Source: Nitrospirales bacterium
GTDB lineage: Bacteria; Nitrospirota; Nitrospiria; Nitrospirales; UBA8639
Assembly: GCA_029261275.1 (NCBI GenBank)
Contig: JAJDBR010000008.1
Location: 1-64,000 of the forward strand
Direction: 5' to 3'
DNA length: 64,000 bases
Shown: one piece after another, positions 22,782 through 43,437 of the stretch
Position numbering within the stretch: position 1 is the first letter of the stretch
Layout: each line of letters starts with the position of its first letter
Position numbers and translations under genes: made by a program
Notes under the pieces: generated by a model
Database searches by the model: none
Told to the model about the DNA's origin: nothing
Seen by the model: the letters and a program-made list of their open reading frames with translations, nothing else

Positions 22782-24236
22782 TCACTGCATTGATCGGTTG
22801 TGATTACGAGTCTCCGCTAAGGTGTCTATAAGCTCTTGGAGTACTGTTGACGCGATCAGCTTCATTGATCCTAGATAGAATATCGCACCACCCATCAGAC
22901 ATCCGGCGAAGGTAACCCAATCCGGCAAGCCTTTCTGCAGCAACATAAACCTCACCAACCAGACGAAGGAACCCATCATCGCTGAAGCAACGGCCATCGG
23001 CACCAAGTTACTATAATAATCCCTTAAGCGGAGACCGATGATGCGTAATCCGACAAACTGGTTGGGAATTGCGCTCAGGACATTGGCAATAGCATAGGCA
23101 ATGGCAACACCTTCAATCCCCCAACGCACACCAATGAAGATGGCCGGCACGATTAAAGATACTGCTAGTATTTGCATATATAGCAAAATATCAGTGCGGC
23201 CTTGCGAGAGGTAGATGCTTCCAAAAAACCCTAGAGCCTGTAGGGCACCTACCGAGGCAAGAACCTGAAAGGGGAAGATGGCTGAGGTCCATTGTGGACC
23301 GTATAGCAAGATAATGAATTCCGGTGCGGTGACAATAGCTCCAACCGCCAAAGGGAAGACAATGAAGGCAATAAACCGTGTAGATAGAAGAAGGATCTTC
23401 CGGATTTTTTTGTGATCGTTCTGGAACTGCGAAAATGCAGGGAAAAATACGCGCCCAATTAAGGTCGTGACATGGAGTGCCGGCAATCGCATGAGCTGAT
23501 AGGCGCGGTCATAATATCCTAATGACGAGCTACCTAACATCGTACCGATGAGAATATTATCCATGTTTTGGTTTAGGTATTTGAAAAAACTCGATATTTG
23601 CAGATGTACACCGAATCCCAACATGTCATAAATGGAACGATAACGGAATAAAAGGCGAGGCCGCCAATCAGAAAGTACCCATAGGACGATGACCCTTGCG
23701 ACTTCTGTAATGATCCATTGCCAAACTAAACTCCAGACCCCAGCTCCCCGAAAAGCAAGAACGATAGCGATCACACCGCCGATAGCCGAACCGACAATAT
23801 CAGCGAGACTCAAAGCTTTAAAGTCCATTGCCTTTGTCAGGAGGGCAATGTGAACGGCGCCCAAAGAGGAAATGACAAAAACAATCGCCACCACACGGGC
23901 AATAGGAATCACCTGATCATTGTTGTAGAATTTGCCTATCCAGGGAGCGGTTCCATTCATGAGCAAAGCCAGGAAAATACCCATGGCAAGAGTCAGCCAG
24001 AATACGGAACTTTTGTGAGCTTCGGTGATGTTCTGTTTCTGAATCAACGCACTGGCAAACCCTTGCAACTGGAGCAATGCGACCACGCCTGAAAAGGTTG
24101 CAACCATGACCATGACGCCAAACTCGCTTGGAGCAATGAGACGCGCGAGAATCGCCCCAAATACAAATCGCTGAATCTGGATTATCCCTTGTGAAAGGGC
24201 TAACCACCTTAAACCTCTGACGATGAGGTGCTTCAA
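22782..24236 (-). CDS. Lipopolysaccharide/oligosaccharide flippase (Wzx-like)
   Basis: 484-aa polytopic protein; GLRWLALSQGIIQIQRFVFGAILARLIAPSEFGVMVMV typical of polysaccharide biosynthesis exporters. Confidence 0.9.
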   Translation of the reverse strand: MKHLIVRGLRWLALSQGIIQIQRFVFGAILARLIAPSEFGVMVMVATFSGVVALLQLQGFASALIQKQNITEAHKSSVFWLTLAMGIFLALLMNGTAPWIGKFYNNDQVIPIARVVAIVFVISSLGAVHIALLTKAMDFKALSLADIVGSAIGGVIAIVLAFRGAGVWSLVWQWIITEVARVIVLWVLSDWRPRLLFRYRSIYDMLGFGVHLQISSFFKYLNQNMDNILIGTMLGSSSLGYYDRAYQLMRLPALHVTTLIGRVFFPAFSQFQNDHKKIRKILLLSTRFIAFIVFPLAVGAIVTAPEFIILLYGPQWTSAIFPFQVLASVGALQALGFFGSIYLSQGRTDILLYMQILAVSLIVPAIFIGVRWGIEGVAIAYAIANVLSAIPNQFVGLRIIGLRLRDYYSNLVPMAVASAMMGSFVWLVRFMLLQKGLPDWVTFAGCLMGGAIFYLGSMKLIASTVLQELIDTLAETRNHNRSMQ

Positions 24237-24457
24237 GCAGGTTTGCCTTGCATAAATTGAACAAACGTGAAAGTCAGAATCATGAAATTTGTGAAGAGCT
24301 TGAAAGACAAAGAGAGAAAGAAACGTAAATTCAGGAAGTCAAAGCTAGAAAATTATTCCCGGGGACTATTTTAGATTGAGAGTTGGCACCGAGAACCCTG
24401 ATTTTCATTCAATCGAAACATGGCAATCTCCTCTAGTGCACGGCACTTTGAGAACGA

Positions 24458-25891
24458 TTATTTTCTTTGTAACAACACGGCAGTCTGTGGTGGAAGCCTA
24501 CCGTTTTCTGCACCGACAGACGCCTCGCTTCTCCACGTTGACTGATATTTCTGCATGATGGCCTTCTTCAAAACGATATCGCCGTCAGTAAAATTAATAA
24601 TCAAATATTGTCCAGACAAAAGTATCAGGATGTCGGCGGAACCGGTATTGATCTCAAACTCACGAAACATGGGGATTTCTTTAGTTAATCCACGATTGAT
24701 AACCAATGGGTCGTAGCCGAGAATTGCTGGTGTTGGGAGGGTTGTACGTCTTATGGATATGTACCGTTGTATCCATAACTCATTTAAAAGTTCCTCTCGC
24801 AGGAAAAAAGTAAAAAGAATTTCGCAGATGAGAATAGGATAGCCGGGGATAGATTGTGCAAAATAGTCTAAAAACTTCCGGTATTCTGGAGAGAAAACGT
24901 ATTGTAAGCCCGATAGAGCCATTTGGGTTGCTTTTTCCGCGAGATGTTTTCCATGCCCTGACCTTTCTAATTGGTTGGCTAATCTGGCCAAATCCCATGT
25001 GTTGACCAGATGATAGTTGAACCCCATTCCGGCGTATCCAATATCCCGCTCCAGATAACCGTCTTTGGACTGGAAACAGGGAAATCTCCCCTTCAGGAAA
25101 GGCCGCAGACGGTTAAAATAAACAGATCCAAACCCTCGGTTAATAAAGGGCCTGGATTGGGAATCATTTCCTTTTTGAAATAAGTGGTTTCTGGCAAGAC
25201 CGTCCAAAGACTGAAAAAGAGATGCTCCTAATCCGCCTTTAGGTTGTAGAACATACTCTAATGCCTTTAACCCAGCCTCTACATGCTGACTGAAATCTTG
25301 GGAATCACGAGTCGGTAGGTTTTCTACAGATCTCAAGACTTGCATAATAGTGATGAGGGTATACACATGAGTATTCAGAACTAGGGCATTTCCTTTTGAC
25401 GAGCCCCACGCGAAGTTATTGCATGGTTTCTGTGGATTGTCCGGTGCATGTTCGGAAGACTCAAATGAATCATGATAGAACCAAAGTCCGCCGTTCCCCA
25501 GCGGTTCGCTAAAGGACAAATGACGACGTACGGTAGATACGATGAAACCAACATCCTCAATGAGTCCATCCCGGTAACCCTCAACCAAGATAAGGATGCC
25601 ATCAGCAGTGGATCGAAGGCCGTTGCCTTCAGTTGAACCGGGCCATTGCCTATGTGCCCACAAGCCGCCACAGGCTTTAAGGCGATCCGTAACTCCTCTC
25701 ACAAGTCTTTTTCGTAGCGACCGATTGTCCGAACCCTCGACAATCTCTTGAGTTCTCAGTCCGAGGTATAAATTGTACACGTCGTTTTCTTTGGGAATCC
25801 CAACTTTGCGATTGATGGGTACTCCGTCCACAAAGAAGTGAGAAAAATCTTTTGGAATATCAGTTTCTACTCCAGAGATATTCATTTTCAT
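24458..25891 (-). CDS. Hypothetical protein, possible alpha/alpha-toroid carbohydrate-modifying enzyme
   Basis: Intact 477-aa ORF; no firm family assignment by eye. Confidence 0.5.
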   Translation of the reverse strand: MKMNISGVETDIPKDFSHFFVDGVPINRKVGIPKENDVYNLYLGLRTQEIVEGSDNRSLRKRLVRGVTDRLKACGGLWAHRQWPGSTEGNGLRSTADGILILVEGYRDGLIEDVGFIVSTVRRHLSFSEPLGNGGLWFYHDSFESSEHAPDNPQKPCNNFAWGSSKGNALVLNTHVYTLITIMQVLRSVENLPTRDSQDFSQHVEAGLKALEYVLQPKGGLGASLFQSLDGLARNHLFQKGNDSQSRPFINRGFGSVYFNRLRPFLKGRFPCFQSKDGYLERDIGYAGMGFNYHLVNTWDLARLANQLERSGHGKHLAEKATQMALSGLQYVFSPEYRKFLDYFAQSIPGYPILICEILFTFFLREELLNELWIQRYISIRRTTLPTPAILGYDPLVINRGLTKEIPMFREFEINTGSADILILLSGQYLIINFTDGDIVLKKAIMQKYQSTWRSEASVGAENGRLPPQTAVLLQRK

Positions 25892-26030
25892 TGTGCATGA
25901 CCGTCAAAACGGATTGTTAATTCTCGAAACAGCTAACAGTTCTCATCTCTAGAACCGTACCCCATAAACCACTCGAATCCGCCGGTTTTGTTCTCCACCA
26001 GGACAGCCCGGAGAGAGCTTCCAATTCAGT

Positions 26031-26864
26031 CTAACTCTTATTCGTTCTCCATTGGGTCGGAGCGCCAAATCGCTCACACAAAATATTGATGTCATTTCGG
26101 TGCATGTCTTCAAGAAACTCCCTGAAACTTTCTGGTAGCGGAAAATCTGGATTTTTGTTAGCGGCCTCTCCATAAGGAAAGGCATTCCAATCGACATCTC
26201 CTGAAACACCAATATGTGAGAAGATCTCCCGCAACAATGTTTTCGGACTTTTAACGATATCATCGAAATAACCAATGTATAATTGTTCACGAGGGAAAAT
26301 ACTCAACCAGTTGTCTAAGAGATTCACAACTTGCTTCGCATGATGTCCACGAATGTAATCACCCTCAGGGCCAACTTGACCTCTAAAAATAGCGTAGAAC
26401 TGAGCCTCATCAATATCATGAAGCTGTTTGTTGGGAATACGGGAGAGAATTCTTCGTGCCGTAGACCATTGTTGCTGAATGGGATTACGAACGAGAAGAA
26501 TCAATCTGACGTTCGGAATGATTTTTCGAATAAACTGGATACGTTCCGGAATTAAGCGGCTATAACCAGGCGTTATTTCTCCATGTATTCTGTCACTGCA
26601 AAGGTCGAATTGGCTTGAGTAAAATCGTAAGCTGCGATGAAATTGCCGGTCGAAATAGTGTAATTCTTTGGTACTCGGAAGATTTAAGTGAGGATGACAA
26701 CGAAGATTCTCATAGAGCCAAGTGGTTCCGGACTGGGGCAGACCTATGCCTAGGAAGTCTGGCAGGCATAGTCGTTTTACAGACCATGTGCCGTTCGTAT
26801 ATAAGGATTTTTCGCATCGACTATATGTGTTCCATAACCGTAGACCTAGCCTGCGAAACATCAT
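26031..26864 (-). CDS. Sulfotransferase
   Basis: FLGIGLPQSGTTWLYENLRCHPHL (5'-PSB loop), RLILLVRNPIQQQWS (3'-PB). Confidence 0.9.
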   Translation of the reverse strand: MMFRRLGLRLWNTYSRCEKSLYTNGTWSVKRLCLPDFLGIGLPQSGTTWLYENLRCHPHLNLPSTKELHYFDRQFHRSLRFYSSQFDLCSDRIHGEITPGYSRLIPERIQFIRKIIPNVRLILLVRNPIQQQWSTARRILSRIPNKQLHDIDEAQFYAIFRGQVGPEGDYIRGHHAKQVVNLLDNWLSIFPREQLYIGYFDDIVKSPKTLLREIFSHIGVSGDVDWNAFPYGEAANKNPDFPLPESFREFLEDMHRNDINILCERFGAPTQWRTNKS

Positions 26865-26897
26865 TATTCCCCAATTGGCTCTTGGAACTATCTTATT

Positions 26898-27698
26898 TTA
26901 GGTAATGGCACTTTCTTGAGACGGCAAGTACCCGAACTTCTTCATCTTACTCCCACAAATTCTCTCGATACGCATTAAGTTCTCTGTACCGTAAAATTCT
27001 TCCCAGGGAAGGTCACGATCTTTACCAAGAGGATGGTACAAAATATCTAACTTGTCAGTGATGTCGTTCTTTGGAGACAAGCCTAACTGTTTTGCCAATC
27101 CCCTAATTGCCTTAATCTTGTCTTCCATGAAATCCTCATAACGGATCATGGCTATATCGTCGGGATTCTCTACAACCACATTCGTGATCCGGTTCCATTG
27201 GCTAGCAAGGATATCAATGTAGTGGGTATCGTTGAACGGTAATATTGCCGGGTTGAAAATCTCTTTCCAACCGTTCGGCAATGGCCAATCTCCTGCTTCA
27301 AAGTGCTGGAGATTACCGGGCACACCCATCCGATTAAGAATGCTTCTTATATTGTCCCGCGGGTCGCGATTGATAAAAACGTACTTGGCGGCTGGAAAGA
27401 CTGCCTTAAGCTGATCATAAATCATGGATAGCCTAGGTTCTTTGATCAGATCTCTTGAAAACGGTTTGGGATGACTTTTGACAAAGGAAGAGAAATCAAT
27501 GATTCCTTGCATGCAATGCGCTGCGTTCGGATACCATAATTCCGAAATATCCAAAGTTTTGGATAATCCACACAATTCAGCTAAAAGATGTGTGATAGCG
27601 TTACTTCCTGATTTAGGATGGCACAAGATGATGACTGCGTGTGGATTGGGTTTGATCGTAAGTCGATCAAAATACAATTTCAATCTGGAAATGATCAC
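26898..27698 (-). CDS. Sulfotransferase domain protein
   Basis: VIILCHPKSGSNAITHLLAEL; YVFINRDPRDNIRSILN. Confidence 0.85.
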   Translation of the reverse strand: MIISRLKLYFDRLTIKPNPHAVIILCHPKSGSNAITHLLAELCGLSKTLDISELWYPNAAHCMQGIIDFSSFVKSHPKPFSRDLIKEPRLSMIYDQLKAVFPAAKYVFINRDPRDNIRSILNRMGVPGNLQHFEAGDWPLPNGWKEIFNPAILPFNDTHYIDILASQWNRITNVVVENPDDIAMIRYEDFMEDKIKAIRGLAKQLGLSPKNDITDKLDILYHPLGKDRDLPWEEFYGTENLMRIERICGSKMKKFGYLPSQESAIT

Positions 27699-27729
27699 CG
27701 TCTTTATTCGTTTCAGTTTTTCACTAAGC

Positions 27730-28734
27730 TCATTCGGATAGGGTCTTTCTACTTAGTTTGGATATCGTCCGTGAAATCCTAGTCAGTACACCCCCTGAAT
27801 GTTTTGTTATCCTGGTCAATGGCAATGTTTGGGTTCCAAAACCTGCTTTGTGCTTAACAACTCCGTTGCCCCCGCTACCGCTGGGGTTGAAATCAAACCA
27901 TCGATATTTGCCCTTACAGACGTCTTTGGTAATTTCATTCATTAAGAAGTGCCAAGGATGAAAGCTGAAAAATTCCTTTAGTGTTGCGCCGTGCCAGCCT
28001 ACAACATGCTTGTTATGAAAGAACACAAGCGCTCCGGAGACTATCTTACCATCCACGAGAGCAAGATAGAGCTTTATGTCCTCCGATTGGGTACGGAACA
28101 TGTTTTCAAATAGTCTGAGTGGATAGATATAATTGGCATTATCACCCCATCGTTTGGTTGAATCCTGGTATACACGGTAATACTCTTGCCAGTCCTCGAT
28201 GCATGTTGCGATCTTAAAGGTTACCCCTTTGCGCTGTGCTTGCTTAATATCCTTCCGATGGCTTCGCGATATTTTCCTCCAAATGGCGTCATAGCCTACC
28301 GATGTATCCATGCATTGCGTGAAGTCGTTTTTGATTTCCCCGACATCGGAAAGATCAACGCCAAGCAATGATTGGTCGTAAGGATTGGAAGACCAGATGA
28401 AGTTCTTTATGTTTTCATTGGTCCATTTTATGATATCTAGGTGTTGTTCAGTCACGAGTTGCTTGGCACATATCCAACCCCCGTATACATAGGCGGCGTT
28501 GCTTATGAAAGTGGGTGGTTGCAACAAACCCGTTGCTGCCATTTGAATCATTGGGAATACAACACACGTATTCTTTTCAAGAATAAATGTTTTGGTAGCA
28601 ACCTTAACGTGCGGGAAAGTATCCGAAAATATTTTCGACCACATGGGGGAATGAAAAAAAGTGGCATAATCACACTGGTCGGCCACCCTTTGCCATTCTT
28701 CATAATCGATTTCTTCTCGAACCTCAATTATCAT
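27730..28734 (-). CDS. FemAB-like GNAT acyl/aminoacyltransferase
   Basis: FHSPMWSKIF; SHRKDIKQAQRKGVTFK; WFDFNPSGSGGNGVVKHKAGFG. Confidence 0.8.
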   Translation of the reverse strand: MIIEVREEIDYEEWQRVADQCDYATFFHSPMWSKIFSDTFPHVKVATKTFILEKNTCVVFPMIQMAATGLLQPPTFISNAAYVYGGWICAKQLVTEQHLDIIKWTNENIKNFIWSSNPYDQSLLGVDLSDVGEIKNDFTQCMDTSVGYDAIWRKISRSHRKDIKQAQRKGVTFKIATCIEDWQEYYRVYQDSTKRWGDNANYIYPLRLFENMFRTQSEDIKLYLALVDGKIVSGALVFFHNKHVVGWHGATLKEFFSFHPWHFLMNEITKDVCKGKYRWFDFNPSGSGGNGVVKHKAGFGTQTLPLTRITKHSGGVLTRISRTISKLSRKTLSE

Positions 28735-28789
28735 ATAACTAAACCACAGTGCTCTTAAGATGGGCCTCTATAGAATCAAAGAGGAAATG

Positions 28790-28925
28790 TTGAAAAAATC
28801 CACCAGCGGCGTTCTCGCCATTTTTCCGTGCTCACGTACTGGAAGTACGCTCCGCGCGTCAAAAAGGCTGTGGCCTTGCTGGATGACTTTTTTGACCATT
28901 TCCGTCAGCTACTGATACGAGAAAT
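28790..28925. repeat. Long imperfect palindromic (REP-like) intergenic element
   Basis: Centre CGTACT-GGA-AGTACG (28835-28849); outer arms TTGAAAAAATCCACCAGCGGCG ... TTGCTGGATGACTTTTTTGAC pair imperfectly. Confidence 0.65.
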
Positions 28926-29280
28926 TTCCTAGAGCATAGAAGGGCTGTTTTCGAGAAATATTCAACGGGCCCAAAGACTATCTGACATTGACCATCCTAA
29001 TGACCGACACCCATAACCGGTTCCTAAGCATTCCGACTTGCATTTCACGAAATTTCTGCTCAAAGGCTTTGGTGAAACGAGGGACATCCAGTGGTGGCCC
29101 CAGTTTACTCCATCCATGAATATGACGAGGCGGGAGACGACCATTGCCGCTCCTAGCAGCATGGTCAAAGTGATGAATCCAACAACCGTGTTTAAGCATA
29201 TCCCCGCAGTTATGCGACAATACATCTGATTTTTTTAACCATCGAGCGCGCTTTCATTTCATTAGAGAATATCTGTTTCT

Positions 29281-30411
29281 TCAAGTAAGATACTTCGACT
29301 TAAAACGTTCCCATTTACTTCCAGAGGACTTCCCGCAGATCAACGCGCAGGTATGGTTTTTACCCTTTGCAAATGTTTCCTTTTTCCAGGATTCCGGAAT
29401 ATGACCTTGAAAGAAGGGGCCTTCGATAATCTTTTTAAGGTCGTGTTTTTTAGCATTGACCACATCCCATCCGCCCATTTCTTCTAAAATGGGTAGTATC
29501 TGCCGTTGCTTTTCCACCAGATTGTCATTATAAAAATGCGTCGCTAAATAACAGCACGGAACCACATAGCCAGTGGCCGTTATGTAAATCGATTTATCAA
29601 TTTGAGCCGCACAGCTAATTTTTTTTACGGTATCCAAGTAATCCCGAAACGAGGGGTAATGACTTTTAATGTATTCTATGTTTGTATTATTCTGGCCACG
29701 GAACTGCCCCAAGTTCTCGTTACGAAAATCAGGGTTTTCCGGCATTCCTAACCAATCAACAATTTCTCCATTGTTATTCTTGATTGGTGTCCGTTCCCGA
29801 TATTCCATGGTGTTCACATCGATAAATCTACGTGTCTTCTTAACGTTGAATTGCGAAAAACCAAGTTCTTTTGATAGGGCGCGTGCTTCTTCGACCTGGT
29901 GCTCATTGTGACGAAAAACGAGATAGTCCCATTGCGCACATCCGCCTGCGTTTATAAACGCTTGAACGTTTCGCATGATTACGGGCCATTCGGTATTTCG
30001 CCGATAGATATGATTGGTATCTCCCAAGCCATCAATAGCGAATGTCACTGATCCATTTTTATTGGTAAATACCTGAGCCAATTTTTCCCACCAATCTTCA
30101 GTACGAGCACTGCCATTGGTAAACATACTTAGAGTGATCTTGTCGTTGGAGTCTCTGAAATAGCGGAAAATTTCCAATGTCTCTTTTGCCATGATCGGGT
30201 CACCATAATTTCCGCACGCAATCATCGTATTCAATTGGGAAATAAATCGAGAAGAAAAAATTCCTTGAACTTCTGCTAAAGACATGGATACCAAAGGCAA
30301 GCGTGGGTTAGTTGTTCCGCCAGAGTCATTCCGTCCGCATTGGGGACAAGCCGCATTGCATTTATCGGTAATGGCCAACTGAACGGTTCTAATTTGGTCG
30401 TAGGAATACAT
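29281..30411 (-). CDS. Radical SAM protein with C-terminal Cys (SPASM-like) region
   Basis: AITDKCNAACPQCGR (CxxxCxxC); VPCCYLATHF. Confidence 0.88.
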   Translation of the reverse strand: MYSYDQIRTVQLAITDKCNAACPQCGRNDSGGTTNPRLPLVSMSLAEVQGIFSSRFISQLNTMIACGNYGDPIMAKETLEIFRYFRDSNDKITLSMFTNGSARTEDWWEKLAQVFTNKNGSVTFAIDGLGDTNHIYRRNTEWPVIMRNVQAFINAGGCAQWDYLVFRHNEHQVEEARALSKELGFSQFNVKKTRRFIDVNTMEYRERTPIKNNNGEIVDWLGMPENPDFRNENLGQFRGQNNTNIEYIKSHYPSFRDYLDTVKKISCAAQIDKSIYITATGYVVPCCYLATHFYNDNLVEKQRQILPILEEMGGWDVVNAKKHDLKKIIEGPFFQGHIPESWKKETFAKGKNHTCALICGKSSGSKWERFKSKYLT

Positions 30412-31052
30412 CTTTTGGGTCTAATTATAGTGAATTTGGCAAAGGAATAATCCCACGATCGGGCTTATACATTTACTCGGTTCAACATGAGATTAGCGCT
30501 AAATTCAATGCTAACACAGATTGGTTTTTATTACGTTGTACGAATCTAGTTGGAGCTCTCCGTTATTGATGGCTCCACTGGCTTATGTGGAATTGTCGAT
30601 GGAGTGTATGGAGACTCAGAAGCCGCGCTCTGAACTCTGCGCCGTCGTCCGGTGGCTATTGGACAAATAACCAACTCGTTAACCATACTGAGAACGCGAT
30701 TTAGTTTTTGTTGATCTGATGTCACTATACGGACAACCCTCTATATTCTGTCTCAAATACTCGACCAAGACCAATGCCCTTTGATGGATGACTTGCGCTA
30801 CATGGTTAGAATTGATCCACGCCGAGTAACCCACGAAGGACCTCGAAAGTGCGATAGGGAAGCCCCACGCACGACTCCACCAGTGTATCGAATGCTGGAA
30901 CGCAAGGGGAGCAGGGCAGGAGAGGGGAGCGCGGCCAGAACAATGGATGAATTGTGTACGCCGCGAGCGACTCGTCCTGAACGTCAATGGGCGCAGGTTC
31001 CGGTCGGAGGCAGTCTGCCATCTCATACCATCGAAGGGGCAAATGCCGTCTC

Positions 31053-34000
31053 ATGACTGACAAGCGATTGATCCTCATCAGTGCTCTCATAATCTTGTTG
31101 GTTGCAGTTTTTTGGGGCAGCTCACGCTATCCGGCTTTGAACGATAAAGCGATGATGGCGGGAGATACCTCACTCGCAGCCCTAGGATTTGATGCGTTGG
31201 TGACCGTCGATGACGATGAGGGTCTCGGTAAACGAATTCTCTACAATACGATAAACTGGATTTATACGAATCGGCAGGGAATGGCGTTTGGGCTGTTACT
31301 GGCCGCACTGCTGATGAGTTTGTTGCCTCTGCTGCGCAACCGGATCTCTCAAAACGGACTTGTTAATGCCACTCTCGGGGTAATAATTGGAGCACCTCTC
31401 GGTGTTTGCGTCAATTGCGCAGCCCCCATTGCCAAAGGGCTTTATTCGGCTGGGGCGCGTGTGGAAACTGCCCTTGCCACGATGATCAGTTCCCCAACGC
31501 TGAATGTCATGGTTTTGACGATGACCTTCTCCCTCTTTCCCTTGTACATGGCGACAATTAAAGTTGGCCTGACCCTTGCCTTTATCCTGCTGGTTATCCC
31601 CCTGCTCCCCAGACTCATGCCGGTAATGCCAGCGACGCCGCAAACCGAGTGTCGACTCGACAATTCGGCTAACACAGTGCCCCCGGCTTTTCTGGGAGTG
31701 GACGTATACAGCTCTGAGGGTGTCACCACCTGGTCGTGTGCAATCGTAGAAGTAGGCCAACAATTCGGCCGCAGTCTCTGGTTCATCCTGACCACCACGG
31801 TGCCGCTGATGGTGCTGGCTGGATTTCTTGGGTCCGCCCTGATCACTGTTTTACCGTTCGAGTCGTTCGCAGATAAAATCCCGAATTCTGGGCTGTTTCT
31901 GACAATCTTGTTTATCCTTCTGGTTGCCTTGATTGGCCTTTTTCTTCCAGTCCCAATGGCATTCGATGTCATAGTCGTCGCGGTCTTGTTCGAAGCCGGT
32001 CTCCCGACGCTGTACGCGATGGTCCTGTTGTTCACACTCGGGATATTCAGCATCTATTCCTTCTCCATCACCTGGCAGACCATTTCCAAACGAATTGCGG
32101 TGGTGATGTTTCTTATCTTGGCTGGATTAGGGATTGTCGCCGGCGGACTGGGGCATCAGATTGATCGATGGCAGGCAGCAAACCAAGTGCGACTTTTCGA
32201 TAACTGGCTGGATACGCGCATCACTAAGGCCGCAGCCTTGCCCGTCCACAATCCACCACTGGTGTCACCGGGAACGCCGGGGCGCAAGCTCGTGAGTCGA
32301 TTGGAGCCGGGTGCAATCTCACGCTCCACGCTCCTTGGAGAAAGCGGGGACAAAATCCTCGTGGAACGAATGTCCTTCAAGAGGCCAACGCACCGCCCAG
32401 GAACGGTTTTTACCCGCCTGGACGGGGCTGATATAGGTTTTGACGAGGCCAACACGTTTTTCATTACCGACCTCCTTGACTCCTCGTTTCAATTCCGGGG
32501 CATCGCTGCCGGGGACATCCACAACGACGGTTGGCCAGATATTGTTCTGACCACGAAATCGGGCCCTGCCCTGTATGCGAACCACCAGGGTACCCACTAC
32601 GTTCGCCAGCAGATTCCTATCTCGGAGCTGAACGGACTGCATGTGGTGAATGTCGCGTTGGTTGACCTCAACAACGATGGCTGGCTGGACATTTTTTTCT
32701 CAACCAATCAATCGGGGAATTTCGTGATATACAATCGTGACGGAGATTTTCCCGCGGACAATCTACGCCGAGTTTCCAATCGCGATGGAGCCTTCATGGC
32801 TGGCGCCATGACATTCGGGGATGTGGACCGGGATGGTGATCTGGACATTGCTCTTGGTAACTGGTCCATTGGTATGCTAACTCGCAATCAGTCCTTCGAT
32901 TCCTCACGCAACGTTCTTCTGGAAAATGATCGTGGAGACTTTCGGCTGAGGCCTCTGCCCGGCATCGCGGGCGAAACGTTGAGTGCTCTCTTCTCGGACT
33001 TCAACAACGACGGCTATCTGGACTTGCTGATCGGTAATGACTTTACGCCATCCGATACCTACTATCTGGGTGACGGAAAGGGCGGATTGAAACGGCTGGG
33101 CGAGGGCGACGGAGTCATTGATCACTCGACCTTCTATACAATGAGCCTCGTCACCGCAGACATTAACAATGATCTGGTGCCGGAGATCTACGCAGGCCAG
33201 GTGAGTGCCGGGGTAGACAACTACTCACCGGAGGAAATCTGTGCGGAGCTAGACGATACAGCGCGACGGAAGGAATGTGAGCGGAGGAGGGGAATACTGG
33301 ATCTCGTCAAGAGTATTTTTCGTGACAAGGATGCCTCACGATGTCTAGCGCTGCAGCGAGAGCATGACCGCGACGGTTGCTTGGCCTGGTACTATCTTTT
33401 CTCCGCCATACGTTGGGGAAATGATCCCACCCACTGTGGCCGATTTCCCGCAACCTGGGAGCGTTATGCCACACTCTGCCATCACTACTTCGAAACACGT
33501 GGAGACGCAACGGATCCGGAACAGGGGTCAGGCGAGATCGTCTCGTTTAAGAACTATAATGTCCTGCTACAATCAGATAGAGATGGTCGGTTCGTCGACC
33601 GTGCGAAAACTCTCAATCTGGATCGGGGAGGTTGGACATGGAACGCGAAATTCGCCGACGTTGACAACGACGAATGGCAGGACTTGCACATCGCCAACGG
33701 CATGCCTTTGTTCAGACGGAAACGGGGCGGAACGGGGCCGAACTACTTCTATCACAATGACCAGGGGCAGACGTTTACAGACAAATCGGCCATCTTCGGA
33801 CTCGACTCCTTACTGGATACTTTGTCTTTCACGTACATCGACTTCGATAACGATGGTGATCTCGATATTATCTCCGTGCCCGCGTTTGGTCCAGTCTGGG
33901 TATTTGTGAACAACGCAACTAACGGAAATGCGATCATGATTGAACTGCGCGACGAGCTCGGAAATCGATTCGGCATTGGCAGCAAAATCATCATTCGTTA

Positions 34001-34205
34001 CGGGTCGGGACGCCAGCAGATGCGTGAGATTCAGTCAGGTGGTGGGTTCCTGTCGTTTGACGCTCCTATCGCACATTTTGGCCTCGGCGACTTCGAACAG
34101 ATAGATAGCGTAGACGTTCTTTGGTCCACGGGAGCGCGCACCAGAATTGACGTGGATTTTACAGCTGGGGCCCGCTATGTTATCTCCCGCCGGAATCTCG
34201 AGTAA
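31053..34205 (+). CDS. Polytopic permease-like (DUF318/YraQ-like) domain fused to FG-GAP/VCBS repeats and ASPIC/UnbV domain
   Basis: N-terminal TM helices with GAPLGVCVNCAAPIAKGLYSAGARVETALATMISSPTLNVMVL; then DLNNDGWLDIFF, DVDRDGDLDIALGN, DFNNDGYLDLLIGN, DFDNDGDLDIISV; C-terminal GNRFGIGSKIIIRYGSGRQQMREIQSGGGFLS. Confidence 0.85.
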   Translation: MTDKRLILISALIILLVAVFWGSSRYPALNDKAMMAGDTSLAALGFDALVTVDDDEGLGKRILYNTINWIYTNRQGMAFGLLLAALLMSLLPLLRNRISQNGLVNATLGVIIGAPLGVCVNCAAPIAKGLYSAGARVETALATMISSPTLNVMVLTMTFSLFPLYMATIKVGLTLAFILLVIPLLPRLMPVMPATPQTECRLDNSANTVPPAFLGVDVYSSEGVTTWSCAIVEVGQQFGRSLWFILTTTVPLMVLAGFLGSALITVLPFESFADKIPNSGLFLTILFILLVALIGLFLPVPMAFDVIVVAVLFEAGLPTLYAMVLLFTLGIFSIYSFSITWQTISKRIAVVMFLILAGLGIVAGGLGHQIDRWQAANQVRLFDNWLDTRITKAAALPVHNPPLVSPGTPGRKLVSRLEPGAISRSTLLGESGDKILVERMSFKRPTHRPGTVFTRLDGADIGFDEANTFFITDLLDSSFQFRGIAAGDIHNDGWPDIVLTTKSGPALYANHQGTHYVRQQIPISELNGLHVVNVALVDLNNDGWLDIFFSTNQSGNFVIYNRDGDFPADNLRRVSNRDGAFMAGAMTFGDVDRDGDLDIALGNWSIGMLTRNQSFDSSRNVLLENDRGDFRLRPLPGIAGETLSALFSDFNNDGYLDLLIGNDFTPSDTYYLGDGKGGLKRLGEGDGVIDHSTFYTMSLVTADINNDLVPEIYAGQVSAGVDNYSPEEICAELDDTARRKECERRRGILDLVKSIFRDKDASRCLALQREHDRDGCLAWYYLFSAIRWGNDPTHCGRFPATWERYATLCHHYFETRGDATDPEQGSGEIVSFKNYNVLLQSDRDGRFVDRAKTLNLDRGGWTWNAKFADVDNDEWQDLHIANGMPLFRRKRGGTGPNYFYHNDQGQTFTDKSAIFGLDSLLDTLSFTYIDFDNDGDLDIISVPAFGPVWVFVNNATNGNAIMIELRDELGNRFGIGSKIIIRYGSGRQQMREIQSGGGFLSFDAPIAHFGLGDFEQIDSVDVLWSTGARTRIDVDFTAGARYVISRRNLE

Positions 34206-34258: not shown

Positions 34259-35611
34259 CTATTCTGTGTTGATTTCCGGCAATAGCTTAGATTGGCTTAA
34301 GTATTCTCTCAGTATATCCGCCACAAGTTTATGTCCCTCCTTGTTGAAATGCAGGTCATCCAAATACAATTTCGAGCTCTTTCTCGCTGCCATTTCCTTC
34401 TGGAACTCATAGAAGAAAAATCCCCCTTCATCGCTATAATCGGAGATCTGTCGACGCGAATTTTCTACGTATTTGTTGTAGATTTCATAAGACCGAAAAT
34501 CCATCTCGTAGGGCAAAAATATAACAACAGTTTTTGCGTTAGTACTCTTACCAACAGCCGCTATTTCCTTCAAAAGCCTTAAAGTAACGGCGATTGACAT
34601 CAAAAATTCTTCTTCTGACAAAACAATACGCTGGATTTTATTTAAATGTTCCTGCTCTTCTGTTTCTTTCTTATCTCGTTTTTGTTGCCCAAACCGATTG
34701 GCCATCATCCTGTCAACTACCCGGCTACCGATGTAGTAAATTTGGCTCATTTCCTGTAATCGTTTGTTGAATCGGGCCATAGAACCGAAATTGGAAACGG
34801 GCACGTTCGTTAAGCGCAAGACTTCTCCTTCTAGTTTAAACACTGGCTTTGAATAGCCGTTCCGCATGGTTTTGTTGATATTATCCGTTAAATCATGAGC
34901 ATTGATCACGACAATGATGAGATCGGGAGAGAATTTTATGCCTTTAGATTTTAGAGCCAGAAATTCCTGATCCGTTCCATACCCGATGACACCGGTATTT
35001 ATCGTCTTAACAGATTGGAGATTGTTTTCGAGAATTGAAGTTAAAATATGTTCTTCATCCACACCGATCCCGAACAACTGGGAATCGCCAAGAAAAAGGA
35101 TTCTGAATTCATCTTTTGGTTTTTGAAAGGGCACTATGCCACCTCTGAAACCGAGGCTGTTTGTTCGTACGTTGGCTCCTCTAGAGGAAAATGTTCTGTT
35201 GGGTTTATTAACCCAGCCCAGGAAATCGTCAAATTGAGCGTACGCTTGCCGAGCCGTATTAAAGTGGCGTTTTCTATCCACAAGGTTTAGAGTAATTTCT
35301 ACCATGAAAATTAATAGAATTAAGGAACACAATATAAGGCCGGAAATGGTAAGCAATTTCTCATTTCTAGGATTGTGAACACGGAGAATAAAAAAGAGAA
35401 GGATTAGACAGAGTCCGAGAGCCAATACACACGTTTTGATCCAAAAAATCACCCTAATAGTGTCTATTTCAATAGTGCTGGGGCTCGCCGAAAACTTTTC
35501 GACAAATGAGGGATTAATAAATAGGAAAGCCGCGAGAATCACGAGAATACCGGCAGCTATTGGAATGATCCGGATAGTGCTCCAATTTCGTTTTAACCAA
35601 CTTCTGTCCAT
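34259..35611 (-). CDS. Membrane-anchored SGNH/GDSL hydrolase
   Basis: RILFLGDSQLFGIGVDEE (block I), DLIIVVINAHDLTDN, LDDLHFNKEGHKLVADIL (DxxH). Confidence 0.85.
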   Translation of the reverse strand: MDRSWLKRNWSTIRIIPIAAGILVILAAFLFINPSFVEKFSASPSTIEIDTIRVIFWIKTCVLALGLCLILLFFILRVHNPRNEKLLTISGLILCSLILLIFMVEITLNLVDRKRHFNTARQAYAQFDDFLGWVNKPNRTFSSRGANVRTNSLGFRGGIVPFQKPKDEFRILFLGDSQLFGIGVDEEHILTSILENNLQSVKTINTGVIGYGTDQEFLALKSKGIKFSPDLIIVVINAHDLTDNINKTMRNGYSKPVFKLEGEVLRLTNVPVSNFGSMARFNKRLQEMSQIYYIGSRVVDRMMANRFGQQKRDKKETEEQEHLNKIQRIVLSEEEFLMSIAVTLRLLKEIAAVGKSTNAKTVVIFLPYEMDFRSYEIYNKYVENSRRQISDYSDEGGFFFYEFQKEMAARKSSKLYLDDLHFNKEGHKLVADILREYLSQSKLLPEINTE

Positions 35612-36287
35612 CAGGGTCTCCGCTTACACAACAACCAGAAAAATAGTCAATATACAGTGAGGTTAGCCGCCAGAAAACCCCACCAGGAGGTGCCCGGCGG
35701 ATTACAAAATATTACATTCGTTAATTTATCGCGAATGGGCGATAGGCAAAGCTGTTGTTCTGGGGTTGGGCCGATAGCACTGTATGAAGGATATACGATA
35801 AAACAGGTCCGAAGCTCTGAGGGTTATTGACTTTCGATAACATGAATCGTTAATGAAAAAATTCTGACGACCGTCCAATTCCCGTGCTTTAAATTCAATC
35901 TCCTCGTAGATTCCACTATCCGAGACTGCGATAAGAACACCCGAGAGTCCTGATTGCGGTCAAACCTAAATGTACTGACAACCAGACCAGGGGTCCCCAA
36001 GACCAGTGCAAGGGGACATACGGCCTTGTTTGAACTGTGGAAGGGCAGATGTCACTCGATCTGTTCCGTGCCAATTGGTTTGTGTTCTGCGACAACGTGT
36101 GTGCTATTGCAGTTACGTTTACTGGAAGGCCCCACATCACCGATGTTCCATTGCTGGTAGATGGGGGAAAGGGTGCTGTAATACTGGACCAGCTCGTGCA
36201 CCCCGTCAGTCAACAGGTCGGGAACTTTCTGGAGCGACAAGAAGTGCCAGCGCGAGATATCGAGAACTGATCCGTGCACTATACACG

Positions 36288-36419
36288 CTAGAATACTTGA
36301 TATTCAAAGGGAACGTTCTGCGGCGAACCGGCAAGCACGAAAAACAACAAGGTAACGACCAGATAGAACAAAATGAAGCCTATCAGGTACCATTTGTAAC
36401 GCCGTAAAAACTCAATCAT
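36288..36419 (-). CDS. 43-aa membrane microprotein, DUF5989-like, coupled to upstream SGNH gene
   Basis: Own translation: MIEFLRRYKWYLIGFILFYLVVTLLFFVLAGSPQNVPFEYQVF*; TAATG overlap with the SGNH stop codon. Confidence 0.7.
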   Translation of the reverse strand: MIEFLRRYKWYLIGFILFYLVVTLLFFVLAGSPQNVPFEYQVF

Positions 36420-37396
36420 TAGCGAATCTTTCTTTTGATAAAATCTTCACTGTGGTCTGCAATCAGACGATGGGCACGGGCATTTGGATGGGCATCGTCT
36501 AACGCGACCCACAGGGCGTGTGGGTCAGTCTGTTCGTTCAGCATGGGCGCCAGATTAAGCACCTCTATATCGTTTGCCTCCAGAAATCCAATGATTTGTT
36601 CATGCTGTTGCGCGAACGTATACTCGACCAGATTGTGGAGTTCGGGAAGAATCACCACTTGCAAATCGATATCTCTTTGACGGCTAATCTGAGCAAGCTT
36701 CAGAAGGGATTCCCGGGTTTCAATCCAGCCTGGCTGAGTATCATGATAGAGATCTGCGTAGTATTCCTTGAAGGTTTTGCCGGAAAACCACCGAGCTTGC
36801 AGCTTCTTGAACCGTGACCAATAGAATGTTGTCAGCCGGAAGTTTGCAAGAAAGGCAAACGCCGATTTCTTGGGTATCGGTTCTGCATCGTTAATGAAAT
36901 AGAAAAGGACCACGGCATCCGGGTTGTACTTCAAACCCTTATTCAGGAACAGACTGACTTCCTGGGTCGTATTGTAATTGCCGGTACCGAAGTTAATGAT
37001 TTCGGTTGGCCTATCTTTGCTAAGCCGTCGTTCGAGGATTGTCGCGAAAATTTCAGGTTCTTCAACACCCCATCCGAAGGTTAGGGAATCGCCCAGGAAA
37101 ATTATACGTCGACTGTGCCTGTCCCGTTCAATAGAATATTCCCGATCCCGCAATCCGTCTGCATTGATGTTCACCTGCACATTCATCAACCGTCCCTCGG
37201 CACCCGGTCGATGCACATGGCCAATTCGCGGGTTGGTCGATTTCATTTTGAAGGATTGCCCATATCGGGACATCTCTACATCATAAAATATATTGTGGCT
37301 AAGATAAACTCTAAGGACTAGCTCTATCAGAACGAGAGAGATCCCAATGGGAATCAGAAGCAGAGCGAGATACCGGAAAAATTTAATGCTTTTCAT
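36419..37396 (-). CDS. SGNH/GDSL hydrolase
   Basis: RIIFLGDSLTFGWGVEEPE; DDAHPNARAHRLIADH. Confidence 0.88.
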   Translation of the reverse strand: MKSIKFFRYLALLLIPIGISLVLIELVLRVYLSHNIFYDVEMSRYGQSFKMKSTNPRIGHVHRPGAEGRLMNVQVNINADGLRDREYSIERDRHSRRIIFLGDSLTFGWGVEEPEIFATILERRLSKDRPTEIINFGTGNYNTTQEVSLFLNKGLKYNPDAVVLFYFINDAEPIPKKSAFAFLANFRLTTFYWSRFKKLQARWFSGKTFKEYYADLYHDTQPGWIETRESLLKLAQISRQRDIDLQVVILPELHNLVEYTFAQQHEQIIGFLEANDIEVLNLAPMLNEQTDPHALWVALDDAHPNARAHRLIADHSEDFIKRKIR

Positions 37397-38384: not shown

Positions 38385-39016
38385 TAGAGGATAGGTCTAT
38401 CGAGTTTATGCTCATTTTCAGTCCGAGCGTTTTGTAAGGCGCAGCGATTATCTGCCAATCTAGACAATTGGCTAAACGTATCCCCACGTGAACAATATTA
38501 CGTGGGTTTTTGGGAGGATTGTCCGAAAAAGAGGTTTCACGATATATTTAAGCACGTCAGTGTTTTAGTTGATATAGATTGAAGTATATTGCCTCTCAAA
38601 CAGGTCGCTCTTCCCCCCGATTCATGCCTTCAGAAAGATCAACTAATAGTCATAGATAGAGAATGCTCCATTACTCTGCCGAAAAGTATAGACATTTTTT
38701 GACGAAAATGTACCGCCATTCTGTTCGCTAGCAATGTATTCACGGGCAGCACGCTGGCCATGTTAACAGAGTTATTTCTGGTAGAATTCGGGATACGCGA
38801 ATCGCAGGAACTTTTTCTATATGCAAGGCGGCTCCCTTGTGCGCGAGTGCGGCTGAATAGTGACTTAACTGTTATCGCGTACCTGCGTCGCTGTTGAATT
38901 TAGGATCGATCCGGTGTGCCATTCCAGCCACTCATTGGTTCCAAAAGTGGGAGTGCCTTAGTAACTCAGAGATCGTTGTGGCGGTTAGAAACCAAAATCA
39001 TAAAGCGGGGCCGAAA

Positions 39017-41488
39017 ATGAATATCTACCACAAATCCTCGCTTAGACAAGTCCCGACTCGAAAAATCTTGGGCACCTTGATGATTTTATCTGGTGTTCTC
39101 CTGAATAAATGGGCCCTTGAATCTATCCTTGGCCCGTATGGTTCCATCGAAACTACATTCCGAATCTTCTTGATTCTTGTTGAACAGGGGTGTCTTGTAG
39201 GCATGGGGCTTTGGCTTGTTTTCCGTGATAAGAAAAAAGGCACCCTCCCTTTCCTTAAAGGTCGAAAGCCTTTCCCTCCTTATACCTCCGCTATTGTAGT
39301 TCTAGTGTGCTTCGCTGGAATCTCGATTGGCGCATATGGATCTGCGTATTATCTTTATGAGTTGAGTTTAACTCGGGGTCCGATTCAAACACCGATATAC
39401 GACGTGACGGAGTTATGCGAATGGTTGTCGCAAGATGACGTGCCACATATCGGTGTAGGAGTGGTGAAAAATACAGCCGCTAAGCTGGAAAAAGTAGCTA
39501 ATGAGCCCGGCACAGTAGATGAGAGGGTTCAATTAAAACTTCGGTTGGCTAATTATCTGTTGCGCCATAGTCAGATTGCAGAGACCATCGAACATTTGGA
39601 GTCTGCCTTTGATCTCGCGACGACGAACCAACTGCCGGATGAGGTGTTCAACAAGATTCGCCGTGCATTGGGTGTGGCTCACTTACGTAGCGGAGCAATC
39701 AAGCACTGCATACAGATGCACAATCCCGAGAGCTGCCTCTTTCCTATCCGGGGAAAGGGTGTGTGGGAAAATCCCCAATCAGCAATGAAGGCGATCGGAT
39801 ATTTTGATGCCTATCTCAAAGATCAACCAGATAACCCTGGAGTGCGGTGGTTACTGAATATCGCCCACATGGCAGCCGGAAGTTACCCGAGTGGTCTTTC
39901 ACCGGAACTGTTGATTCCGCTCTCCATCATTGAATCAATTCAAGAGGCTCCGCGATTTCGAAACATCGCTCCCACTCTTGGTCTGGATGCATTCAACCTA
40001 GCAGGCGGCGCGGTCATGGATGATTTTGATAACGACGGTTTCCTCGATGTTATTACCTCAACCTATCACCCGTGTGAATCGATGTCGTACTCCCATAACA
40101 ATAGTGATGGCACATTTTCTGACTGGTCGGAAAAATCTAAACTCGCTGAACAGTTGGGCGGATTCAATCTTGTGCATGCAGATTATAATAATGATGGCCT
40201 GCTGGACATTGCTGTGCTCCGGGGTGCTTGGAAAGGGCGGGGTAAATATAGGAAACAACGTAACTCTCTTCTGCGGCAGAATTCTGACGGAACGTTTTCT
40301 GACGTCACCAAAGACTCAGGCCTTGGAAGCTCCGCCTACCCTAGTTTGGCCGCGGCTTGGGGAGACTACGATAATGACGGCAATTTGGATCTCTACATCG
40401 GTAATGAGTGGTTTCCCTCTGAACTATACCGCAACAACGGTGACGGTACTTTCACCGATGTGGCAGAAGATGCGGGCGTTGAAAACAACGCCCATACCAA
40501 AGGAGTGACCTGGGGCGATTACGACAATGATGGTGACATTGACCTCTATGTTTCCAATGTCAAAGGGCTTAATCGCCTCTATCGAAATAACGGGAACGGT
40601 ACATTTACGGATGTCGCGAAGGATTTGGGGGTAGCTATCGATGAGTCGAAAAGTGAAACATTCGCGACCTGGTTCTGGGATGTCGATAACGACGGTTGGC
40701 TTGATTTGTTCGTTGCGGGATTCAATGTAAAAAGTGGTGTCAGGGAAGTTGCCGCAGACTATCTAGAGTTAGCGGCTACGGGGGAACGCCTGCGACTTTT
40801 CAAAAATGATAGAACAGGGGGTTTTGTTGATGTGACGAAAGAAATGAAACTTCACCATGTACGTCTGCCAATGGGTGCGAATTACGGAGATATCGACAAC
40901 GATGGTTTCCTGGATTTCTACCTAGGTACTGGTGCCCCTGGTTTCGATTTTCTTGTACCTAATCGGATGTATGGCAATGTGAACGGCAAATACTTTGTTG
41001 ACATTACGACAGCGGCCAATGTCGGGCACTTACAAAAAGGGCATGCCATCGCCTTCGGCGATTTGGATAACGATGGGGATCAAGACCTCTATGCCCAGAT
41101 GGGCGGCTGGTACCCGGATGACCGTTTTTTTAACGCGTTGTTTGAGAATCCAGGCACTGCTAATCACTGGATCACTGTGAAACTCATCGGCGTACAGACG
41201 AATCGCTTTGGGATGGGTGCCAGGATCAAAGTGGTCGTCGAGACCAAACAAGGGGACCGCGCGATCCATAGGGTTGTAGGGAGTGGAGGCAGCTTCGGAA
41301 GCTCAAGCCTTCAGCAGGAAATTGGTGTCGGTGAAGCCAATCTCATTAAAACATTGGAGATATTTTGGCCAACTAGCAATACTCGGCAAGTATTTACGAA
41401 TGTTGCGGTCGATCAATTCATAGAGATCACCGAAGGCGATTCCGATAGGCGTGCCCTGAGCCAAAAAATGATTCGATTTTCTCATTAA
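39017..41488 (+). CDS. FG-GAP/VCBS repeat CRTAC1-type protein (TM helices, TPR-like region, ASPIC/UnbV C-terminus)
   Basis: GDYDNDGNLDLYIGNEWFPSELYRNNGDGTFTDVAEDAGV / GDYDNDGDIDLYVSNVKGLNRLYRNNGNGTFTDVAKDLGV; C-terminal RFGMGARIKVVVETKQGDRAIHRVVGSGGSFGSSS. Confidence 0.9.
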   Translation: MNIYHKSSLRQVPTRKILGTLMILSGVLLNKWALESILGPYGSIETTFRIFLILVEQGCLVGMGLWLVFRDKKKGTLPFLKGRKPFPPYTSAIVVLVCFAGISIGAYGSAYYLYELSLTRGPIQTPIYDVTELCEWLSQDDVPHIGVGVVKNTAAKLEKVANEPGTVDERVQLKLRLANYLLRHSQIAETIEHLESAFDLATTNQLPDEVFNKIRRALGVAHLRSGAIKHCIQMHNPESCLFPIRGKGVWENPQSAMKAIGYFDAYLKDQPDNPGVRWLLNIAHMAAGSYPSGLSPELLIPLSIIESIQEAPRFRNIAPTLGLDAFNLAGGAVMDDFDNDGFLDVITSTYHPCESMSYSHNNSDGTFSDWSEKSKLAEQLGGFNLVHADYNNDGLLDIAVLRGAWKGRGKYRKQRNSLLRQNSDGTFSDVTKDSGLGSSAYPSLAAAWGDYDNDGNLDLYIGNEWFPSELYRNNGDGTFTDVAEDAGVENNAHTKGVTWGDYDNDGDIDLYVSNVKGLNRLYRNNGNGTFTDVAKDLGVAIDESKSETFATWFWDVDNDGWLDLFVAGFNVKSGVREVAADYLELAATGERLRLFKNDRTGGFVDVTKEMKLHHVRLPMGANYGDIDNDGFLDFYLGTGAPGFDFLVPNRMYGNVNGKYFVDITTAANVGHLQKGHAIAFGDLDNDGDQDLYAQMGGWYPDDRFFNALFENPGTANHWITVKLIGVQTNRFGMGARIKVVVETKQGDRAIHRVVGSGGSFGSSSLQQEIGVGEANLIKTLEIFWPTSNTRQVFTNVAVDQFIEITEGDSDRRALSQKMIRFSH

Positions 41489-42109: not shown

Positions 42110-43114
42110 CTAGTTTCCAGAAAGCTTGGACCGAAGAAGAGCCCAACGCAAAAACAACGCACTGATAATCCAACGGATTGGTTGTCGCAGTCTGAATTTC
42201 TGTAGGGCGCATCTGATCTGATTTTGGACGATCCATTTAAGACGCTCTGGGGTGGAGATGGATCTAATTTTCCCTTCCGTGCAGTAACCAAGCTGACTCA
42301 AGAGATCACCGGCGAGAGACTCAAAAAGGACGCGGTCATCAATTCCCATTTCGCGTTGAGACTTGTTTCTATTGTCAGCAATAATTGACATCCTTTTGTT
42401 AATCGCCTTCCCTGTCTTGTCAGAAAAACGCCTTTCCTGGCCCCCGATCCGCCTCGGAGTGAGCATCTCTTCGCAATACGTCTCTCCTAGAAACGAGCAG
42501 ACTCTCCGAAGTGCTTCTGACGGGTCCTGGAGCAAATGTTCATAGTGGATTTCTAGATACTGCTTAGCGGAGAGCATACCACCCTGGTTACGACCAGTCT
42601 CAACATAGCGTTTCCACTCTAGAGCCGCGGTATACACATTTTCAGGCCCAAATGTGGCACGAATCCAAGAGATTGCCACATCTCGACCATCTCGTAAAAT
42701 GTGTAAGATCTGACATGAGGGAAAAATCTCAACAAGAGTTTTGATTTCGAAGACATTCTGAGGGGTCTTGTCCCCCCATCGCCCCCTTCCATCTTTTATG
42801 GCCCAGGCCTCATACAGCGTGGTGACGATCTCGTTATAGCTCCGACAATCGGCGAAATCGGAAGGAACCAGGTCGAGGCCCCAGGGCTGGACCCAGTGGA
42901 GGTTGAGGACGATACTTGCCAGTCGAACAGCTTTAGGTTCAGAATCCGGGTTCCCATAGGCCTTATATAATTGGGGGATAAAATGAGATTCCTTCGGGAA
43001 TGTCAGGTTGGGATGGGATCGAAGAAGATCTCGAATTAGCGCGGTTCCACTTCTCGGACAGCCAACGATGAAGATGGGTGGTTTCTGGGAAAGTGCTGGC
43101 TGTGAGAAAGACAT
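42110..43114 (-). CDS. Sulfotransferase
   Basis: PIFIVGCPRSGTALIRDLLRSHPNLTFPKESHF; ILHILRDGRDVAISW. Confidence 0.9.
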   Translation of the reverse strand: MSFSQPALSQKPPIFIVGCPRSGTALIRDLLRSHPNLTFPKESHFIPQLYKAYGNPDSEPKAVRLASIVLNLHWVQPWGLDLVPSDFADCRSYNEIVTTLYEAWAIKDGRGRWGDKTPQNVFEIKTLVEIFPSCQILHILRDGRDVAISWIRATFGPENVYTAALEWKRYVETGRNQGGMLSAKQYLEIHYEHLLQDPSEALRRVCSFLGETYCEEMLTPRRIGGQERRFSDKTGKAINKRMSIIADNRNKSQREMGIDDRVLFESLAGDLLSQLGYCTEGKIRSISTPERLKWIVQNQIRCALQKFRLRQPIRWIISALFLRWALLRSKLSGN

Positions 43115-43437
43115 TCCTAAATGATTGCGAATTTGATTATTAAGCCGCAAATAAAAAAACTTATTGACGACAAAGTTAATTGATTGATGAGTAATTTTCA
43201 AGACAAAACCTCCTGATCGAGACCATCGCCTTGAACAGCTAGATTTCATATCTCTCCGTGCGGCTTTTGAACTTCGGTTAAATTGGAAAAGCGTTGCTTC
43301 GCGGAAAGCCCCCATCCAAGAATCTGTTAATATCCATATAGGAGCTTTCGGTAAATCCCTGGATCTTTCGACCGGTTCAGAGGTCGGTTATGGTATCCCA
43401 AAGCATTAATGAGATAGGGGGCCTTAAAATAGAGTGA

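Follow-up and report, generated by a model that had tools for sequence, protein, structure and literature searches.

A YraQ-type permease joined in one frame to a CRTAC1-like propeller in a polysaccharide cluster of a Nitrospirales bacterium

The 64,000-nucleotide stretch of a Nitrospirales contig analyzed here (the window) carries an open reading frame in which a multi-span membrane domain is followed by a propeller of the CRTAC1/FG-GAP type. Proteins with such a propeller are often secreted or held by a single anchor. The locus raises the question of whether the fusion is genuine and what a permease and a propeller might do together. An earlier note had read the frame as an intact one of 1051, and this proved accurate, as 1051 codons (1050 residues and a stop) run from 31,053 to 34,205 on the plus strand without interruption. 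The longer start of the same frame lies at 30,987, and the alignments of homologs begin around 31,053.

Pfam was searched with the complete protein and with each of its two parts. As the earlier note had anticipated, the separate searches retrieved the permease family for the N-terminal part and FG-GAP/UnbV for the C-terminal part. ArsP_1 (PF03773, gathering cut-off 32.3 bits) matched residues 80-364 with 42.9 bits in the whole protein and 46.7 bits in the N-terminal part alone, and this was the single PF03773 match in the genome. FG-GAP_3 scored 113.7 bits and UnbV_ASPIC 57.6 bits, the latter over residues 974-1032. The gene is divided as follows:

31,053-34,205, plus strand: permease-propeller fusion, the whole reading frame (single frame; homologs aligned over the full length).
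31,053-32,156, plus strand: permease domain of the YraQ/ArsP_1 type, residues 1-368, with about nine predicted spans (PF03773, predicted helices, hydropathy and charge, alignment with a YraQ orthologue).
31,113-31,199, plus strand: putative extracytoplasmic segment after span 1, WxxSRYPxLxxKAxxxG, residues 21-49 (alignment with solo permeases).
31,407-31,418, plus strand: CVNC motif, C119-V-N-C122, whose cysteine pair is common to the YraQ orthologue (alignments).
31,491-31,505, plus strand: SSPTLN region, residues 147-151, a predicted broken helix (alignment, predicted helices).
31,947-31,967, plus strand: PVPMAFD region with invariant P299, P301, and D305 (alignment, predicted helices).
32,409-33,950, plus strand: FG-GAP propeller with DxDxDGxxD loops and a predicted CRTAC1-like fold (Pfam, profile match to 9etn, Foldseek).
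33,240-33,479, plus strand: helical insert specific to the fusion, with cysteine pairs C730/C742, C764/C776, and C795/C809 (alignment, predicted helices).
33,972-34,148, plus strand: ASPIC/UnbV domain, residues 974-1032 (PF07593).

A chimeric assembly was considered as the cause of the fusion and rejected, because ArsP_1 (E ≤ 0.001), FG-GAP_3, and UnbV_ASPIC are present together in all 19 full-length aligned members, the window protein included, and some of these members lie on complete plasmids. The same architecture was sought in other genomes, as had been proposed, and was found across several phyla: scanning contigs with the protein returned relatives in Myxococcota, Gammaproteobacteria, Alphaproteobacteria, Bacteroidota, Methylomirabilota, a Peregrinibacteria bin, and Pyrinomonadaceae (Acidobacteriota), with taxa taken from record titles or classification. 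Eight complete plasmids of marine Rhodobacterales carry it with at least 80% query cover. Marine isolates with a plasmid copy include Tateyamaria and Leisingera. The joining of permease and propeller in one frame is thus a real, ancient, and conserved fusion.

It is nevertheless rare in the sampled genomes. In the phylum of the window, the fusion occurs in one of 396 genomes, which is the window's own; four others have a solo permease, and one has a propeller match only. Matches were found in 11 of 379 Myxococcota genomes, one of them a solo permease, leaving the fusion in about 10, and in 3 of 385 genomes of the alphaproteobacterial class that includes Pontixanthobacter. Viral contigs gave propeller matches but no permease-propeller fusion. 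The 3-kb bin that holds the permease half has a G+C content of 51%, where neighboring bins have 43-47%, and this composition, together with the patchy spread, suggests horizontal transfer of the gene.

The strongest single result tying the two halves together comes from a Myxococcota genome (G503) that has a fused copy (L006), a solo permease, and a permease/propeller pair split into two genes. In this pair, the TAG stop of the permease gene overlaps the GTG start of the propeller gene. The split propeller, of 663 residues, begins with VLHRALLTLTLALAGPLPAPAAD, a stretch that reads by eye like a signal peptide, and it retains all six cysteines of the insert. This start supports a location of the propeller outside the membrane, and an outward C-terminus fits the distribution of charge along the window protein. 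A second candidate for a split form, the Parasedimentitalea marina plasmid copy (L053, 14,932-18,065), was set aside because it is broken into three frames, probably through a frameshift or sequencing error; the G503 pair was accepted owing to its overlapping start and signal-peptide-like stretch. The two halves also diverge together: pairwise divergences of permease and propeller correlate with a Pearson coefficient of 0.93 and a Spearman coefficient of 0.78. In the propeller tree, the fused forms group apart from two stand-alone propellers (100/100).

The calcium-site-like DxDxDGxxD repeats and ASPIC/UnbV end named in the earlier note were both recovered, the former as several loops, on a propeller of the CRTAC1 type. 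A profile built from the family hits murine CRTAC1 (9etn, E 1e-25) as well as integrin propellers, and Foldseek aligned the predicted full-length structure with 9etn at a TM-score of 0.69 by target length, so that the propeller is predicted to have the CRTAC1 fold. Calcium may be bound at the DxDxDG loops. What the earlier note overlooked is the insert that marks the fused family, as well as the polysaccharide and sulfotransferase setting of the gene. The insert, of about 90 residues, carries three cysteine pairs whose partners stand mostly 11 to 13 residues apart in all 20 fused proteins, the position of C776 being a cysteine in 19 of them; it is missing from the two stand-alone CRTAC1-like proteins aligned with the fused set. 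From their regular spacing, the pairs probably form disulfides. Two Myxococcota relatives (L112 and L114) have a linker of about 250 residues between permease and propeller, with about nine similar cysteine-pair repeats. Pfam has no significant model for the insert or for these linker stretches.

The permease half had been likened to DUF318/YraQ-type permeases on the strength of a VNCAAPIAKG...SSPTLNVMVL motif, and the likeness held, with PF03773 above its cut-off and the motif, at residues 120-155, conserved: C119, N121, C122, S147, P148, and N151 are invariant or nearly so in the relatives. The motifs common to these are FWxxSRYPxLxxKA after the first span, CxNC, SSPTxN, LPVPxxFD, and LGxxS, and C119, N121, C122, P148, N151, P299, P301, D305, and S333 are kept in both fused and solo forms. 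The Enterobacter YraQ orthologue, encoded beside dolP, is 27% identical, and its C125 and C128 align with C119 and C122. Residues 1-400 were modeled with a mean pLDDT of 83 and a pTM of 0.81. Nine spans with the N-terminus inside and the C-terminus outside best fit the hydropathy, the basic-residue counts, and the predicted helices, within the 8 to 10 helices estimated earlier, loop 262-280 being the one exception to the charge rule; we take this as the probable topology. Comparing the profiles of the two halves of the permease gave no support for an internal repeat. No significant match to a solved structure was found in the PDB, by sequence or by fold, and for this reason the substrate and direction proposed for transport are guesses.

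One could suppose that this membrane half does not transport at all and merely anchors the surface propeller. The absence of a known substrate and the habit of such propellers to be secreted or singly anchored would fit, but a single helix would be enough for this purpose, the permease is as conserved among relatives as the propeller (mean identity of 44% versus 39%), and its core motif is kept across phyla and common to solo permeases and YraQ. We consider a mere anchor improbable, as the conserved core argues for real transport; with this core intact, the permease half is probably transport-competent.

The fusion shares with YraQ/ArsP_1 (PF03773, DUF318, COG0701) the permease family, the position of the cysteine pair, and a PxxxKA-type segment after span 1; however, YraQ stops after the permease, where the fusion continues with a propeller of about 670 residues, predicted to be extracytoplasmic, and the cysteine motif is CSCC in YraQ and CxNC in the fusion. 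With CRTAC1 and the bacterial ASPIC/UnbV proteins it has in common the FG-GAP propeller, the C-terminal ASPIC/UnbV domain, and the predicted CRTAC1 fold (9etn), but these lack a multi-span permease, and the cysteine-paired helical insert is absent from the two stand-alone relatives. The SO_0444 Cu/Zn (NF033936) and SaoE (NF040736) efflux transporters belong to the same broad permease superfamily but have no propeller.

The main rival to our reading is that the permease exports a thiophilic metal, metalloid, or organometal that the propeller and its cysteine module catch or buffer outside. PF03773 membership, the weak similarity to the SO_0444 and SaoE models of NCBIfam, and a CxxC pair in the permease with six cysteines outside all point this way. 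Yet the scores are far under the equivalog cut-offs (22.2 bits against 300 for NF033936; for the solo form, 28 against 325), and the six cysteines are arranged as three regular pairs, more like disulfides than a metal site. Moreover, no metal-resistance neighbors were recognized in the window or around most relatives, although one (L005) has an RND-type pump nearby. Metal efflux thus seems unlikely to us, if still the most serious of the alternatives. In the libraries searched, no curated family spans the whole protein, and the NCBI label of the plasmid copies is just 'FG-GAP-like repeat-containing protein'. Nor did the permease-propeller architecture appear in the literature searched, of which the papers on UnbV, DUF318, and YraQ were covered by their titles; no paper came up that treats the two domains together, or UnbV/UnbU together with enediynes. 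Within these sources, the protein is not a well-documented common family; its parts are known, and their coupling defines a real, rare, and undescribed family of probable coupled transporters.

Around the fusion gene, the following neighbors were identified in the window:

22,782-30,411, minus strand: Wzx-type flippase, two sulfotransferases, FemAB-like transferase, and radical SAM/SPASM protein.
34,259-37,396, minus strand: two GDSL/SGNH hydrolases.
38,894-41,488, plus strand: stand-alone CRTAC1-like protein (FG-GAP and UnbV) without a permease.

A third sulfotransferase lies at 42,110-43,315, and glycosyltransferases were also read from translations. Five sulfotransferase loci were found in the genome, and three of them fall in the window. 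The fusion gene stands alone inside this polysaccharide cluster and is in no operon with glycan genes, as the genes on both sides are on the opposite strand. The stand-alone CRTAC1-like protein, about 4.7 kb from the fusion, has N-terminal membrane segments, and a similar stand-alone neighbor occurs in L010.

Comparable neighbors recur around the relatives. Sulfotransferases adjoin five of them (L013, L052, L053, L054, and L058), and reading L096 by eye gave two more. Enzymes of glycan metabolism adjoin L008, L010, L014, and L055-L057, and 2-oxoglutarate or Asp/Arg hydroxylases adjoin L007, L009, L013, and L053. Glycosyltransferases, a deacetylase, polysaccharide export genes, and giant Ig-like or S74 proteins are found among the neighbors, and the Rhodobacterales plasmid copies have S74-domain proteins, giant Ig-like proteins, and type II secretion or polysaccharide export genes nearby. 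No obvious glycan or surface-polymer neighbor was seen for L011, L012, and L015, and polymer loci, being variable, tend to gather genes of many kinds, which counts against the argument from context.

Several other features of these neighborhoods were observed. Phage-tail-collar proteins lie near the fusion in three lineages (L009, 3578-5374; L017, 5308-7280; L052, 18,242-20,188), beside GNAT acetyltransferases in L009 and L017 and with a DUF6916 protein in L017. Upstream of the fusion in L096 (385-7666), a row of genes was read by eye as asparagine-synthase-like, Asp-hydroxylase-like, two sulfotransferase-like, FkbM-like, and halogenase-like. On the Rhodobacterales plasmids (L051-L057), an unnamed protein of 130-180 residues and an S74-chaperone-type protein recur upstream of the fusion.

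One solo relative (L061) stands in a different context, third in an operon behind the end of a polyketide synthase and a 4HBT thioesterase. Enediyne cassettes comprise a polyketide synthase, a thioesterase, and UnbL/V/U, and the fusion could by analogy with their UnbV and membrane-protein genes be a unit for natural-product export or self-protection. This is the only solo relative in such an operon among those examined from the window's phylum, however, and no such genes were found near the fused forms examined or, for polyketide synthase and thioesterase, among the window neighbors scanned; we hold this explanation to be very improbable. At 1-2779 of L061, the synthase end contains a PS-DH and a phosphopantetheinyl-transferase-like region, and the thioesterase resembles the enediyne type.

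The earlier note had suggested that the propeller serves the permease as an extracytoplasmic sensor or scaffold. The covalent coupling was confirmed and the extracytoplasmic location supported, the latter through the signal-peptide-like N-terminus of the split relative. The sensor or scaffold role found no such support; the conserved core favors transport and the context favors surface polymers. A propeller that senses calcium or another ligand and controls the opening of the permease would accord with the covalent coupling, the outside location, and the relation of the fold to integrin and lectin propellers. On the other hand, no signaling domains or regulators are consistently nearby and nothing specific to gating was found, which makes this somewhat less probable in our view than metal efflux.

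We prefer, at about even chances, a transport-competent YraQ/ArsP-type permease with a CRTAC1/UnbV propeller on its outer face, working in surface-polymer loci. In this mechanism, an inner-membrane permease would carry the calcium-site propeller on the outer side of the membrane, where the cysteine-paired helical insert would stiffen it. The permease would move a small, possibly thiophilic substrate outward, a direction suggested by ArsP/SO_0444-type relatives. The ligand of the propeller at the exit might be a glycan, a secreted surface protein, or the product. The unit may act in gene clusters that serve to assemble and chemically modify surface polymers such as sulfated polysaccharide and giant secreted proteins. 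Slightly more tentative is the general statement that YraQ-type permease and cysteine-stapled CRTAC1-type propeller form an obligatory, undescribed, and scattered envelope transport unit, as a fusion or an overlapping gene pair, that supplies or exports a group for surface polymers.

YraQ/DUF318 permeases occur widely, and for most of them no substrate is known. The CRTAC1 (ASPIC/UnbV) proteins of bacteria are common and, to our knowledge, uncharacterized. The conserved fusion and the split pair tie these two dark families together and make both testable, as the ligand of the propeller and the substrate of the permease should be linked. The cysteine-pair helical module is in addition a defined element to seek in other surface proteins. 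If the obligatory permease-propeller unit is true, it would offer the first functional handle on the YraQ permeases and on the bacterial CRTAC1 proteins.
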